From Dillenia suffruticosa (lineage: Eukaryota > Streptophyta > Magnoliopsida > Dilleniales > Dilleniaceae): DNA of 64,000 nucleotides. A program made the translations under genes and the position numbers. Below, in pieces: positions 26,952 to 39,585 of this stretch. The stretch is taken from positions 496,001 through 560,000 of the forward strand of contig JAVTVX010000010.1 in assembly GCA_033439265.1 (NCBI GenBank), in the 5' to 3' direction. Every line of letters starts with the position of its first letter. Within the stretch, counting starts at the first letter, position 1. Below the pieces are notes generated by a model. It saw nothing but the letters and a program-made list of their open reading frames with translations, ran no database searches and was not told the DNA's origin.

Positions 26952-29921
26952 TTAAATTGAATCATCCGATTCATCGGAGTCACTTCTATCAGGCTCTGCA
27001 GCATTTGTTCCCGTCTCCGGAGCATCAGGTTTGACAGCAGGAGCAGATGCAAGTTTTTTGCTGATCTTTCGAGCATTTTCCTCTCCGTCTTCCTCTTGCT
27101 CAACAACTTCGGCATGTACACAATTTAGTCAAGGAATACATCATTGCAAAGCGCAAAATAAAAAAAAAAATTAAAGCCCTTTTCGCACTAGACGTCCTAA
27201 TGTTCCAGACTACGTTGGACATCACATGGAGGCAAGCAGGCATGTCTGTCAATTTTAATTTATTTATGTATTTTAGAGCAATATCTTATGAAAAATTCAT
27301 AGCCCATTTCAATAGTTTGTAGTGTCTGTGAACTACAGTGCTATGTGCGATCCATGTCTTGAAGTGATTATCCCATAAGGTGTAAAACATACTTCACAAG
27401 GTTGAGAAAGTAAATAACGCATAACTAAAAGTTCAAGCAAACAGTGATAGCCTCTGTGCCATCAGCCATGGGCATTCAGTCACAAGATGTGCAATGCAGT
27501 TGCAACAAGACACTTATTAATGAAGCCCCAAAGCCCCATCAGCATATCTTTCCATGGTTGTGGGAGATCCTGTAATATGATTTCTCCTGTAGTAATGAAA
27601 ATACACATAAAAAAGGATATCCGCATTCTCTGCTGTTCCACCAGCCATGATATTCAGCAAATCTTTCTCAACACGTCGAACAAGCTCAGGCTACAACAGG
27701 AACACAGTCTAAATCAGCACTAATTTTACAAGGAAAAGATGAGAAGGAATGCAAAACTATATAGGAAAAGGAGGAGACAAGGAAATCAAATAGAGCTAAC
27801 TTCTCATTTAATTAAGTTTGCATGGGCTTTAGCATAAGTTAAGAATTGTTCAACACCTCTTTAAATAGAATTTGCCACAAAAATATATAGAAGACATAAG
27901 AAATCACCATACATTAAGATCCGGCTCCCTACGAAATCTTCGCCTTCGAGCATCCCTCATCGGAGGGGTAAGGCCATGTCTGTATTCCACTACATCTGGG
28001 GCAGCATCACCCTCCTCTCTTACCATGATCATCTGTCAGAATCCAATAACTCATATAATGAAAATGACAAAGGATAAAGAGTATAGCCATTATAACCAAG
28101 CACTCTACCTGACCAATGTCAGCAGTTTTGATTAGCACGCTATCATCATATGTTTTATATGATTCCACAATACAAGGAAGATCCAGGAGAGAAGCAGGAA
28201 AACGATCATTCCCAATGACAAATGTGCCGCTTCTTCCGTCCTCTGATACACGGTAGTTTCAATTCTAGTTAGTCTATTACAGAGTTCACAAATCATAAAA
28301 GATGAAGAGCTATTCTTCAGTTTATATTTTTTTAATCAGTGTAGAATGTCCTGAATCAATGTAATCGAAGTTACTAATTCTGAAATTCCAGTAGACAGAA
28401 GAACATAAATTAACATCCATTTTGGCTAGTGTGAAGGAAAAATATAAACTAGCATTTCATTTACAATCCAATGTCCATGGAATACTGAATCATGCATCCC
28501 ACAGTGGGACTTTCTATCCCACCCAAAGGAATTCTCTTAAAGCTTCATCCAGTTAAAAGTTAGATAATAAATGGAATGCGACTCTTTATAGCCAATATGG
28601 CAGAAAGAGAATAATTAAATTATTGACCAACCAAAAGGGCAATGCTGGCTCCAGACATTCCATTACAAAAGTGGGCATCAAATAACTATCAAGAACCAGT
28701 AATTATTAAGACCATGTGAGAATCTCATTGCAAGAAAAGAAATTTGAATGGGATGCTCAAAGCTAACCGAGTGTCTCCACCACCTCATAGTGACACTATG
28801 ATTTGACTCATCTCCCATACGATCCTACTTCCATGTGAGTATTTAAGCAAAAATATGATATATGAGATTCCGGGAGGGGGGAACTTGGGGATGCAATCAG
28901 ATATTCATCGGCAAAGGAAAAAATTCAGTTTTCATTTGGTTAGAATTTTAAACTTTGTCTTTAAAATTTAAAATTTAAATGAAATCCTTTTGCTTGAAAT
29001 GATCAAAAGGTATGCGAGTTCAATCTTAAAGTTTGTTACTTGTAGTAACTATGAAGTAATGATGAGGGGCCCACAAACTCTGCTACATATAATTTTCCAA
29101 ATGCTTTATTTTTCAATGATTTATATGAAATGAGAATTAAACTCCACAATTTTTTTACGGGCATGATCTTTTACAAGATCTTCAATTGTGGTTGGTTCAA
29201 GACCTTGAACAACATTAAATTAAACCTCACCAAAACTGCCCATTGAATCTCTCTTACATCACCATGCTTTCATCACCATTGAATCTCTCATATTGTGGTA
29301 TATAAATATCGATGAATTTTGTGTTTTGACACTCAAGTGGACAGTCTTTTGTAGAAAGAATGACAGCAAACAATTGTTCACAGCTGTACATCGAATTCTT
29401 ATGTCCAGAAATCTAGGAAGACTATCTATTTTTTGTCACTAGCCCTCCATCCACAACAGATGAACCATATTCTCGCTATTGACAAACTTAGCCAAACCAT
29501 TTTTGCCTCCTGTGGAGTAAACGAGCTCTCTAAATGGCACAGGCACACAAAATTAATGTTAGAATAACAAGAAAACAGGGCACATGAAATGAAAATGAGA
29601 AGGAAAACAAAGAAGCCAATGCAAACAAAGTAATTGTGATTTAGCCCTGCATGATTCTGGTACCTCATGAGCTTTTCTCAATAAGACCAGTGGGCATATG
29701 AAGAACAAATATACAGAAACAAAAATAAACACCCAACAATTCTCATGATTCAAGATATAACGTGAACTCAGAATGACCCCAATATTAGGGTTTGGTAAAA
29801 TCTTACCAGAGAACGACAGATCCAAAGATTTATCATCAGAAGAGGACGCATTCTCATTTAATAACTGCTCAATCCTCTCTGCCACCGAAGGTGGAACTCT
29901 GAGTATGAATTGCTCCTCCAT
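26952..29921 (-). CDS. TAF7: TFIID subunit 7 (TAF7), with a U12-type AT-AC intron
   Basis: Five coding exons: 29807-29921, 28109-28242, 27913-28032, 27621-27690 and 26952-27115, giving 200 residues, close to the plant family length. The protein opens MEEQFILRVPPSVAERIE and carries the TAF7 core (DGRSGTFVIGNDRFPASLLD; KTADIGQMIMVRE; YRHGLTPPMRDARRRRFR). It ends in an acidic DSDESDDSI tail. TAF7 is a TFIID component in the nucleus that contacts TAF1 and gates its activity at promoters. Four junctions are ordinary only in part: introns 1-3 are GT-AG, but intron 4 (27116-27620) starts ATATCCTTTT and ends AC, with branch site TTCCTTGAC. Using these ends restores one open frame. A 5' UTR acceptor (CTTTCAG) sits at 29933. 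Gene order with the SR factor matches At1g55300-At1g55310 as I recall it. Confidence 0.94.
27116..27620 (-). other. U12-type (minor spliceosome) AT-AC intron of TAF7
   Basis: On the minus strand the donor is ATATCCTTTT directly after GCGG. The branch-point consensus TTCCTTGAC occupies 27128-27136, and the intron ends in AC at 27117-27116, 13 bases after the branch A at 27129. All three signals match the U12 consensus, and no GT-AG pair nearby keeps the acidic C-terminus in frame. Confidence 0.9.
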
Positions 29922-30329
29922 GATACCAAGCACTGAAAGATGCAAAAGAAACAATTTACAAAAGAAAAAAATTTCATGCGAAAACTGAAACGTATTCTTT
30001 CTGTAGCAATTGAAACTAGGATCATACAAACAAAGAAAAAAAAAAAAAAGAAAAGAAAGCCTAAAAGATGAAAACAGAAACCCCGCCCTGAATACAAAAC
30101 TTCAATTCAAGATCATCATTGCCACGGAAAGAGAAAGGGGGAGATTGAAATGAAAAATGGGATCAGAAATGGAGTGACAGGAATCCAACGACTATTTGTG
30201 GATTTATTTCGGATGGCAATTTGAGTGACATCGCCGCCTAGTATGGCGGTGTCAGAAAGAGAAGAAAGTCCACGCAAATCAATCGGGCCTAGGGAAGTTG
30301 CCAGTATAGACCATCTTGGCAGAAGCAAA

Positions 30330-30555
30330 TAGAGATGACAATGGATCGGTTATGGTTTAGGTCACATTAATACCATATCCAACCCTAGATTCTTACTCCA
30401 ATATCCATATCCGACCCTAACCCAATTAGAGTTAAAAAATAGAAAACCATATCCGACTCTACGGATTTTTCTAAAAATCCGATCCAATATATTACATGCA
30501 TTTAAAAAAACCGAACCGATCTGATCCATACACGACACATACCCGACCCGAGTTT
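30330..30555. mobile_element. hAT-like terminal fragment, degraded
   Basis: The stretch starts TAGAGATGACAATGGATCGG, like the ends of many plant hAT non-autonomous elements. It continues with repeated CCATATCCGACCC-type words. The opposite end and target duplication are not visible, so this is probably a truncated remnant. Confidence 0.35.
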
Positions 30556-31515
30556 CAAATATTGTTTTGCCAAATGATACAGCAGCAACAGAAGGGAGGA
30601 ATAAATCAATGAATGGATGTTGCAACATGTCATTGGTAGATTAATTTGCTAACATGAATGGATGTTAATTGGGTTAATAATAGAAAAATACAATACATTA
30701 ATTAATCAAAGATTCATTCATCATCACATCCAATCCAATCATTAGAAAGTGTGAAAAATAAAATAAATTGAACCATACAAATCGAGAATAAACCAAACTG
30801 TTAGTGGGAAGGAAGCAAAGGACAAATAAAATGAAGAGAGGGAATCATGAATGGTGCGTTGAATGTTTGGATTTGAATAGAACACACAGGACATGAATGA
30901 TTAATGGTAAAAAATATTGAATGTACATGAACATGGACATGGGTATGGAAGATTTGCTATGTGGGAGTGCAGTAAATTAGTAGATGATTCGATGGAGATG
31001 TGGTAGTGTCAGAATTTGGTCTCGTTCCTCTCAAATGCAGTCCACTTCCCATCAGAATATTACCCTTAACACAGACAGTAGAGTTACGTTGGGTGTTAAC
31101 TGAATTTGGTCAGCCATTTTCATAGTTCCAGGTTTCAACACTACCCAATTAAACATACTTTGCAATAAACAAATCCAGATGAATTTGGACAAATAAACAA
31201 ATCCAGATGAAAATCTTCAAGACTGAAAGGAACAGGACAAAATAACAATAAAAATCAGCAGGATACAAGATACACAGCATCAAGATCAGAAACTCAAAAC
31301 TAAACATGAAAACAGAAATTCAGAAATTCGAGGAAAATCACAGAGACTGCAAAAATTCAGAAATTAAAAAAAAAAAAACAATTAGAGAAGGGTTGCAGAG
31401 TCCACACTCACAGTCACGGAGATGGGTTAACTACAGGGAGGTCGGCAATGAAGGTCGGTAAGGTCGATTAAAGGATGCGGCAGAGAGACGAGACGATTAT
31501 GAGTATGAAACAATA
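30556..31515. other. Intergenic AT-rich stretch between TAF7 and the SR gene
   Basis: No coding sequence recognised. A short direct repeat (AATAAACAAATCCAGATGAA) occurs twice near 31165-31210. If TAF7 uses the mirrored leader in the palindrome at 31516, this region lies inside its 5' UTR intron. Confidence 0.4.
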
Positions 31516-31935
31516 AAGAGAGAGAGAGGGAGGGGAGAGAGAACCTGGTACCGGCGGTGAAGACGGCGAGTGGTGTTGGTTGGAAAAACCCTAGCTCTCC
31601 CTCTCGCTCGCTCTCGACGGGTTTGAACGAAATAATACGAAGAGGGACCTCAAGGTCATGCCAGACGCGTTTTATCATTGAGGTCTTAAGAAATTACCTA
31701 CTTTGCCCTTGCCTTTGCAATCAGTCAGTCCGTACTGATACAATGCAAGGGCAAAGTAGGTAATTTATCACGACCTCAATTATAAAACGCGTACCTTGAG
31801 ATCCCCCTTCGTATTATTTCGCTCGAACCAGTCGAGAGCGAGCGAGAGGGAGAGCTAGGGTTTTTCCAACCAACACCACTAGCCGTCTTCGCCACCGGTA
31901 CCAGGTTCTCTCTCCCTCCCTCTCTCTTTCTCTTT
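31516..31935. promoter_or_regulatory. Imperfect palindrome forming a divergent promoter/5' UTR
   Basis: The left arm (about 31516-31712) and right arm (about 31745-31935) are reverse complements at roughly 90% or better by eye, with one 8-base indel, around a 32-base centre. The right arm holds the SR gene's predicted 5' UTR exon: telo-box-like AAACCCTAG (reverse CTAGGGTTTTT), then CCGGTACCAG|GTTCTC as a splice donor at 31904/31905. The left arm keeps the same donor on the minus strand (31545/31544), pointing towards TAF7. Both arms have purine/pyrimidine-rich outer ends. Confidence 0.85.
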
Positions 31936-32551
31936 CGTTTTCCGGCACTCGATCTGATGTGTCTCAGTTTGCAGCTTTTTCTCTATTTCACACGATTAGG
32001 GGTCTCACTTTTTTAAGTACAAACGAGCAGACACTCACGTACACACCGTCTCTTCTATCTTTGTGATTATCTCCGTGAATTCCTTCATGTGTGCAATTGC
32101 TCTGTAAAGTTATAGTGTCAGTTGTTTTGAAGTTGCGAGGAGCATGTTTTTTGGAATTGTTATTGGTGGGCTTTTCAGAGTAATTGGGGTGATTTTGTGC
32201 ATCTAGGTGTTTGATACTATATAGTTAATTCAAATTAACCGCTCAAGTTTCTCTAAACTCGGCCACATCTTCTTCTTCATTTGTTAGCCCTCATTTTGCG
32301 TGGTCCAAAGTGAAAACTGGAGGAACTTCTGTTCATTATTTCTTGTTTTTTTGGGGGGGGGGGGAGGAGGGGTGGCTCTTGTTAGAGAGTGTATCTCTAA
32401 ATATTTCGAGAATTTTAGTCTAAACAAGTCCCCTTATTTTGCTTCCTGCATTCTGGGTCTTGCTGTTACTTAGCTTTTTTTTTTAATAAATATATATAAA
32501 TTCATATAGTGTGTGGTTCGTGGTCATAGATCCATATTTTGTGATGCGCAG
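31905..32551 (+). other. Predicted 5' UTR intron of the SR splicing factor
   Basis: Donor CCAG|GTTCTC and acceptor GATGCGCAG|AGGTCAG bracket a pyrimidine-rich, non-coding stretch that ends 21 bases before the start codon. Leader introns are usual in this gene family. Inferred from splice-site fit. Confidence 0.5.
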
Positions 32552-32572
32552 AGGTCAGTCGTATCTTCACAA

Positions 32573-39585
<7,013 letters not shown>

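Follow-up and report, generated by a model that had tools for sequence, protein, structure and literature searches.

In a 64,000-nucleotide stretch of the Dillenia suffruticosa genome, which we call the window, a TAF7 gene and an SR splicing-factor gene are divergent, and between them the SR promoter and its leader are repeated in inverted orientation, pointing at TAF7, as a preliminary description of this DNA had suggested. This arrangement raises two questions: how a promoter came to be mirrored, and whether TAF7 makes use of the mirrored copy. The window lies on contig C10 (38.4 Mb) of a 596 Mb assembly, which was used for all genome-wide searches. Both gene identities had been assigned correctly. 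On the minus strand, the TAF7 coding region with its introns (26952..29921, ATG at 29921-29919) was delimited by exon matches and reading and carries a TAFII55_N domain (PF04658), while the SR coding region with its introns (32573..39585, plus strand) carries an RRM_1 domain (PF00076), with exons, start and stop read directly. We take the SR gene to be SCL33/SCL30A-like, and its Arabidopsis counterpart is presumably also a neighbour of TAF7 (At1g55300 and At1g55310); a literature search on TAF7 and SCL33 together found no paper.

Global alignment of the reverse complement of the left arm (31508..31727, minus strand, as cut for alignment) with the right arm (31728..31940, plus strand) gave 91.8% identity over 207 aligned positions, with 190 matches and 17 mismatches, of which 10 are transitions. 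Its score of 146.8 far exceeds the maximum of 6.2 obtained from 500 mononucleotide shuffles of one arm, and the near-perfect inverted copy of the SR leader region is thus real. Two arms exist, as had been described; their length is about 205 nt and not about 190, and together they span 31508-31940. They also differ by two indels, one of 8 nt at 31657-31664 and one of 1 nt at 31535, and are asymmetrical at the centre. A repeat search resolved the palindrome into nested inverted repeats at 31533-31656/31793-31916 (124 nt, 94%), 31665-31715/31742-31792 (51 nt, 90%) and 31508-31534/31914-31940 (27 nt, 85%). When the 64 kb were scanned without gaps for inverted repeats with loops shorter than 60 nt, the 51-nt inner stretch scored 36 and the two runners-up 18 and 16. 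The outer ends of both arms are blurred by a CT-rich run. RNA folds predicted for the palindrome, at -339 and -355 kcal/mol, only restate it.

From the centre outward, each arm presents a TATA-like box, a leader with a telo-box-like motif, the splice donor CAG/GTTCTC and about 35 further bases. The right arm runs on without interruption into the SR gene and comprises its resident promoter, its 5' UTR exon and the first bases of its leader intron; the left arm repeats the promoter and that exon in inverted orientation, together with about 35 nt of the intron. We recovered in both arms the telo-box-like motif and the shared donor that had been reported, the latter at 31544 (minus) and 31905 (plus). 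The TATA-like box differs, reading TTATAAAAC on the right (31780-31788) and TGATAAAAC on the left. Scored with an approximate plant matrix, the putative SR leader donor GTTCTC (31905..31910, plus) reaches 1.10 bits, third among the 58 GTs in 31800-32560, and is kept in the SR paralogue described below; its mirror image (31539..31544, minus) has the same score and ranks seventh among 101 minus-strand GTs in 29990-31700. This is a weak donor when compared with seven coding-intron donors of TAF7 and SR, which score 1.35 to 6.60. Five of the six GTs that outscore the left-arm donor lie inside the transposon-like element of the left flank (30373, 30495, 30542, 31063 and 31158), and the sixth, at 31697, precedes the leader within the left arm.

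The arms meet at TCAGT-CCGT-ACTGA (31725..31738), a motif that had been placed at the centre and is indeed present there, both on direct reading and in the alignment. Symmetry reaches inward to a loop of 4-8 nt. The resulting hairpin is imperfect, with an extra CAGT and some differences, and a second TCAGT overlaps it at 31721-31725; in a hand alignment, differences were not significantly denser at the centre than elsewhere (Fisher p = 0.16).

Genome searches with the arm, which skip very common words, returned only a partial copy, in the leader of an SR paralogue at C10:31429026, where a single arm is found. The paralogue conserves 31813-31940, and similarity stops at 31813, inside the arm; the inner part, 31655-31812, had no match outside the palindrome in the genome search. 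A repeat origin of the arms is not supported, as these searches found them only here and in part at the paralogue. One extra short match, at C13:5835597, is a CT-rich run in the first exon of an unrelated gene (presumably MOB1-like) and was set aside.

The paralogue belongs to a duplicated SR/TAF7 block on C10, made up of L007 (31.424-31.434 Mb), which holds the SR copy, and L019-L021 (to 31.484 Mb). TAF7 fragments at 31.46-31.48 Mb are divergent from the SR paralogue, with long insertions between; this TAF7 copy is split by insertions and gave no match to exon 1, and a further TAF7-like fragment lies at 31.54 Mb. In L007, the exons matched by a 128-aa query are still open. A segment of the SR intron in the window (33951-36474), which by our reading may be a LINE-like sequence, shares about 72% identity with C10:31463715-31466254, next to the split TAF7 copy. 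LINE-like coding sequence, recognised by eye, also lies upstream of the paralogue's arm similarity, and the upstream sequence of the paralogue gave no convincing match to the window. Because similarity ends at 31813, the sequence upstream is LINE-like and the TAF7 neighbour lacks an exon 1 match, the paralogue is silent on the ancestral state of the locus.

As an outgroup, the paralogue could nevertheless polarise 6 of the 17 substitutions, once seven upstream sites with unreliable alignment and four sites in the CT-rich end had been excluded. The derived base lies in the left arm at 31619, 31568 and 31558, and in the right arm at 31822, 31825 and 31894. Both arms appear to be changing, six sites being too few to rank the constraint on them. 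At 91.8% the arms are more alike than the paralogous SR-gene segments longer than 100 bases (79-83%), which suggests that the inverted copy arose after the block duplication, unless the similarity of the arms is due to gene conversion. Another SR relative, at C13:278017, was rejected as an outgroup, since its coding exon alone aligns besides low-complexity matches; upstream of it (L034, 6400-6850) runs a long CT-/C-rich stretch with repeated GCGGCACTCCTC-like units.

New beyond the preliminary description is the nature of the left flank, which is a truncated hAT-like transposon stopping about ten bases before the left arm. In the genome search, 31385-31510 matched at least 15 other places in at least 14 loci, and 14 matching loci were retrieved and compared with the window. 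The stretch 31351-31428 is common, whole or in part, to 12 of them, and eight contain part of 30327-30552, with seven of these eight reaching to within five bases of the left end. Members of this family start with TAGGGATGGCAATGG and end with ATTGCCATCCCTA. A motif search found both terminal inverted repeats (TIRs) in order, as TAGGGATGGCAAT, in two of the 14 loci (L050 and L056, one stray right-end motif in each being ignored), and their 8-bp flanks are alike at 7 of 8 positions. The TIRs together with these flanks give the anatomy of a non-autonomous hAT element, so that TIRs and an 8-bp target duplication are seen at the level of the family. The copy in the window (30330..31497, plus strand) keeps only the left TIR, TAGAGATGACAATGG at 30330; its right end is missing, and no right TIR was found in 31400-33500, where the best match is 9/13. 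With no right TIR between the arm and the centre, nor onward to 33500, the arm was rejected as transposon cargo.

Three of the 14 loci (L045, L046 and L051) follow the window to 31496-31497 and none continues beyond, so that the exact junction at 31497 is set by these three loci. L045 clearly belongs to the family: it has 31268-31496 in common with the window, with a gap, and beyond that resembles the right part of L050, where the right TIR forms the end. L046 and L051, in which only 49-55 bases are common with the window, may represent another element. Between the element and the left arm lies a filler of about 10 nt (31498..31507), unmatched in the 14 retrieved loci and, by eye, in the right flank of the palindrome. 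An internal segment of the element (30671..31156) is absent from all 14 loci and matches C18:7070680-7071186 (83%) and C4:7813149-7813647 (77%); no left TIR lies in the 1.8 kb around the C18 match, and the segment may be host DNA captured by the element. Five of the retrieved copies (L045, L049, L050, L056 and L057) have a GC-rich, gene-like internal segment whose length varies among them.

We posit that a single double-strand break, upstream of the SR gene, left the palindrome as its scar when it was repaired by fold-back of the broken end and end-joined to a broken transposon, a reading to which we assign a probability of roughly 0.6. It would account for a left arm that starts about 10 nt from the end of similarity to other loci, for arms symmetrical down to a small loop, and for a paralogue with one (partial) arm. 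A short inverted microhomology enclosing a small loop marks the point where the inverted copies join, as fold-back predicts, and the distal end of the inverted copy is joined non-homologously, passing from the arm through about 10 nt of filler into the transposon interior. Counting against this reading are the few loci that define the stop at 31497 (L045 plus the doubtful L046 and L051), the imperfect central hairpin, and arms longer than the products known from yeast.

Starting from what can be read directly, namely the arms, the truncated transposon, the filler, the centre and the partial arm of the paralogue, we infer an order of events and a repair pathway. The hAT-like transposon would first have become lodged between TAF7 and SR. 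Its right half, along with anything between it and the SR promoter, would then have been lost in a break, followed by resection. The SR-side 3' end would have folded back on TCAGT-CCGT-ACTGA and primed the copying of about 205 nt of its own sequence, comprising the promoter, the 5' UTR exon and the start of the leader intron, before the copied end was joined to the transposon stump near 31497 with about 10 nt of filler. The product would be a mirrored promoter whose right half drives SR and whose left half is probably able to start minus-strand transcripts into the transposon, with TAF7 most likely keeping a start of its own within about 30060-30329.

The strongest competing view concerns this last step. 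In it, the left arm is the main or an alternative promoter of TAF7, with 31544 spliced to 29932, so that TAF7 and SR mRNAs carry a near-identical 5' exon. We consider this unlikely. The first coding exon of TAF7 (29807..29932, minus strand) begins at an acceptor that ranks 28th among 3699 minus-strand AGs in the window on a crude, home-made score; the preliminary description was right to call it good, and its position is corrected here to the 29933/29932 boundary. As donors, the 18 GTs in 29950-30335 score -1.52 at best. A strong acceptor with no good donor nearby means that the missing first exon of TAF7 could be distal, and the lack of any higher-scoring GT in that interval makes an intact local first exon less likely. 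TAF7 exon 1 was matched only once in the genome, the left donor has been kept at its seventh place among 101, and the leader with its telo-box-like motif is well preserved, all of which favours a shared leader. Opposed to it, a transposon of 1.17 kb separates the left arm from TAF7, the donor is weak, being outscored by six GTs, the TATA-like box of the left arm is changed, and a promoter-like candidate adjoins TAF7 itself.

That candidate promoter or leader (30060..30329, minus strand) is marked by a GC content of 0.36-0.52 over 30071-30320, against 0.22-0.30 over 29951-30080 (50-nt windows), and by a minus-strand AGGCCCG at 30284-30290; elsewhere in the genome nothing matches 30060-30329. 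It may represent a TAF7 leader that is spliced weakly or not at all. Pyrimidine richness was discarded as a mark of the TAF7 start, for the value of 0.74 at 30111-30160 compares with 0.76-0.88 in several other windows; stretches in the element and in the left arm are equally pyrimidine-rich, and in this respect the candidate is not distinctive. Use of the left arm would put the two transcription starts about 180 bp apart, a TAF7 start near 30180 about 1.6 kb.

A stronger version of left-arm use, which we regard as distinctly improbable, is promoter donation in one step, the repair having destroyed a distal first exon and promoter of TAF7 and at once supplied the mirrored SR promoter and leader. 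If true, the TAF7 of the window, the only one found with a first exon, would have been rewired to the expression programme of a splicing factor.

A different origin becomes attractive because a hAT-like element is the palindrome's neighbour. A hAT transposase may have cut beside the element and left a hairpin-capped end on the SR side, which replication would then have turned into a palindrome, as in Tam3-like events. Kat1, a domesticated hAT transposase, is reported to generate hairpin-capped breaks (PMC4763223), and Ac/Ds transposition can yield flanking inverted duplications and Tam3 flanking rearrangements (PMC3744419). Such an event would be expected to leave the target duplication, by position GAAGCAAA, at a loop-free centre; the duplication is absent from the centre, the best match in 31700-31760 being 5/8, and the centre has a 4-8 nt loop. 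Moreover, the element is cut internally and not at its terminus. The SR leader intron does contain a perfect GAAGCAAA, at 32445 on the minus strand, which we attribute to chance. On this evidence we rate a hairpin-capped origin as improbable, below left-arm use by TAF7 and above one-step donation.

Still less probable, at very long odds, is an ancient symmetric promoter common to both genes, with arms homogenised by gene conversion. The arms of palindromes can undergo mutual gene conversion, and the duplicated block also has a divergent gene order; against this, the paralogue has one arm as far as similarity reaches, and the left arm abuts a truncated transposon, so that a breakpoint is needed there. 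Finally, palindromic chimeras are known from long-read and amplified libraries, but an assembly or library artefact is almost certainly not the explanation, as the preliminary description had argued, because the arms differ by 17 spread mismatches and several indels and each has derived bases relative to the paralogue.

Returning to fold-back repair as the preferred origin, the resulting geometry bears on the RNA that the locus could produce. It had been suggested that any read-through would give a long hairpin RNA, an idea that the geometry does not support. Since both promoters face away from the centre and their transcripts would carry the leader in the same sense, RNAs initiated in the arms are not complementary and cannot pair with each other. 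A hairpin RNA would need a start outside the palindrome, either a plus-strand start within the transposon or an antisense one in the SR intron. No Rfam family reached its gathering score in 31400-32050.

Taken together, the locus shows how break repair beside a transposon could mirror a promoter and leader exon, a single step that would yield a candidate bidirectional promoter. Should TAF7 use the left arm, the locus would exemplify promoter capture by fold-back repair in nature; otherwise, the palindrome would be a repair scar in which two copies of a promoter are changing side by side. No natural mirrored or inverted promoter duplication like this one was found in the largely non-subscription literature searched. 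A comparable case is the niv-525 allele of Antirrhinum, reportedly a Tam3-associated inverted duplication of about 200 bp of the chalcone synthase promoter. It is said likewise to have a promoter and transcription start duplicated in inverted orientation, at a similar size and beside a hAT element; it is said to be a mutant allele with an effect on expression in trans, whereas the arrangement described here is diverged and part of an assembled genome.

Plant bidirectional gene pairs, as defined in PMC2648788, have transcription starts at most 1000 bp apart, and TAF7 and SR resemble them as divergent genes that face one intergenic region. They differ from the pairs described there in that the symmetry is a literal inverted copy and that, with a proximal TAF7 start, the transcription starts would be about 1.6 kb apart. 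In the inverted-duplication model of plant MIRNA birth (PMC3237417), part of a gene is likewise copied in inverted orientation; unlike in that model as outlined there, the promoters here lie inside the palindrome and point outward, and a hairpin would not be transcribed through from them. Among human inverted duplications attributed to fold-back, 13 of 21 sequenced junctions are reported to have 2-8 bp of inverted microhomology (PMC3907307), and a few base pairs of inverted microhomology are also found at the turn of our palindrome; the human cases as reported differ in their spacers of 766 bp to 70 kb, their very large copies and their dicentric intermediate. The proposed mechanism resembles yeast events in which an end folds back at a short inverted microhomology and the other end is captured by end joining, with inverted insertions reported at 2 to about 150 bp (PMC11724301). 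There, as proposed here, inverted microhomology primes self-copying and leaves a short inverted repeat; the locus in Dillenia differs from those insertions in its arms of about 205 nt, in its occurrence in a plant, in being old and diverged, and in the accompanying loss of part of a transposon.
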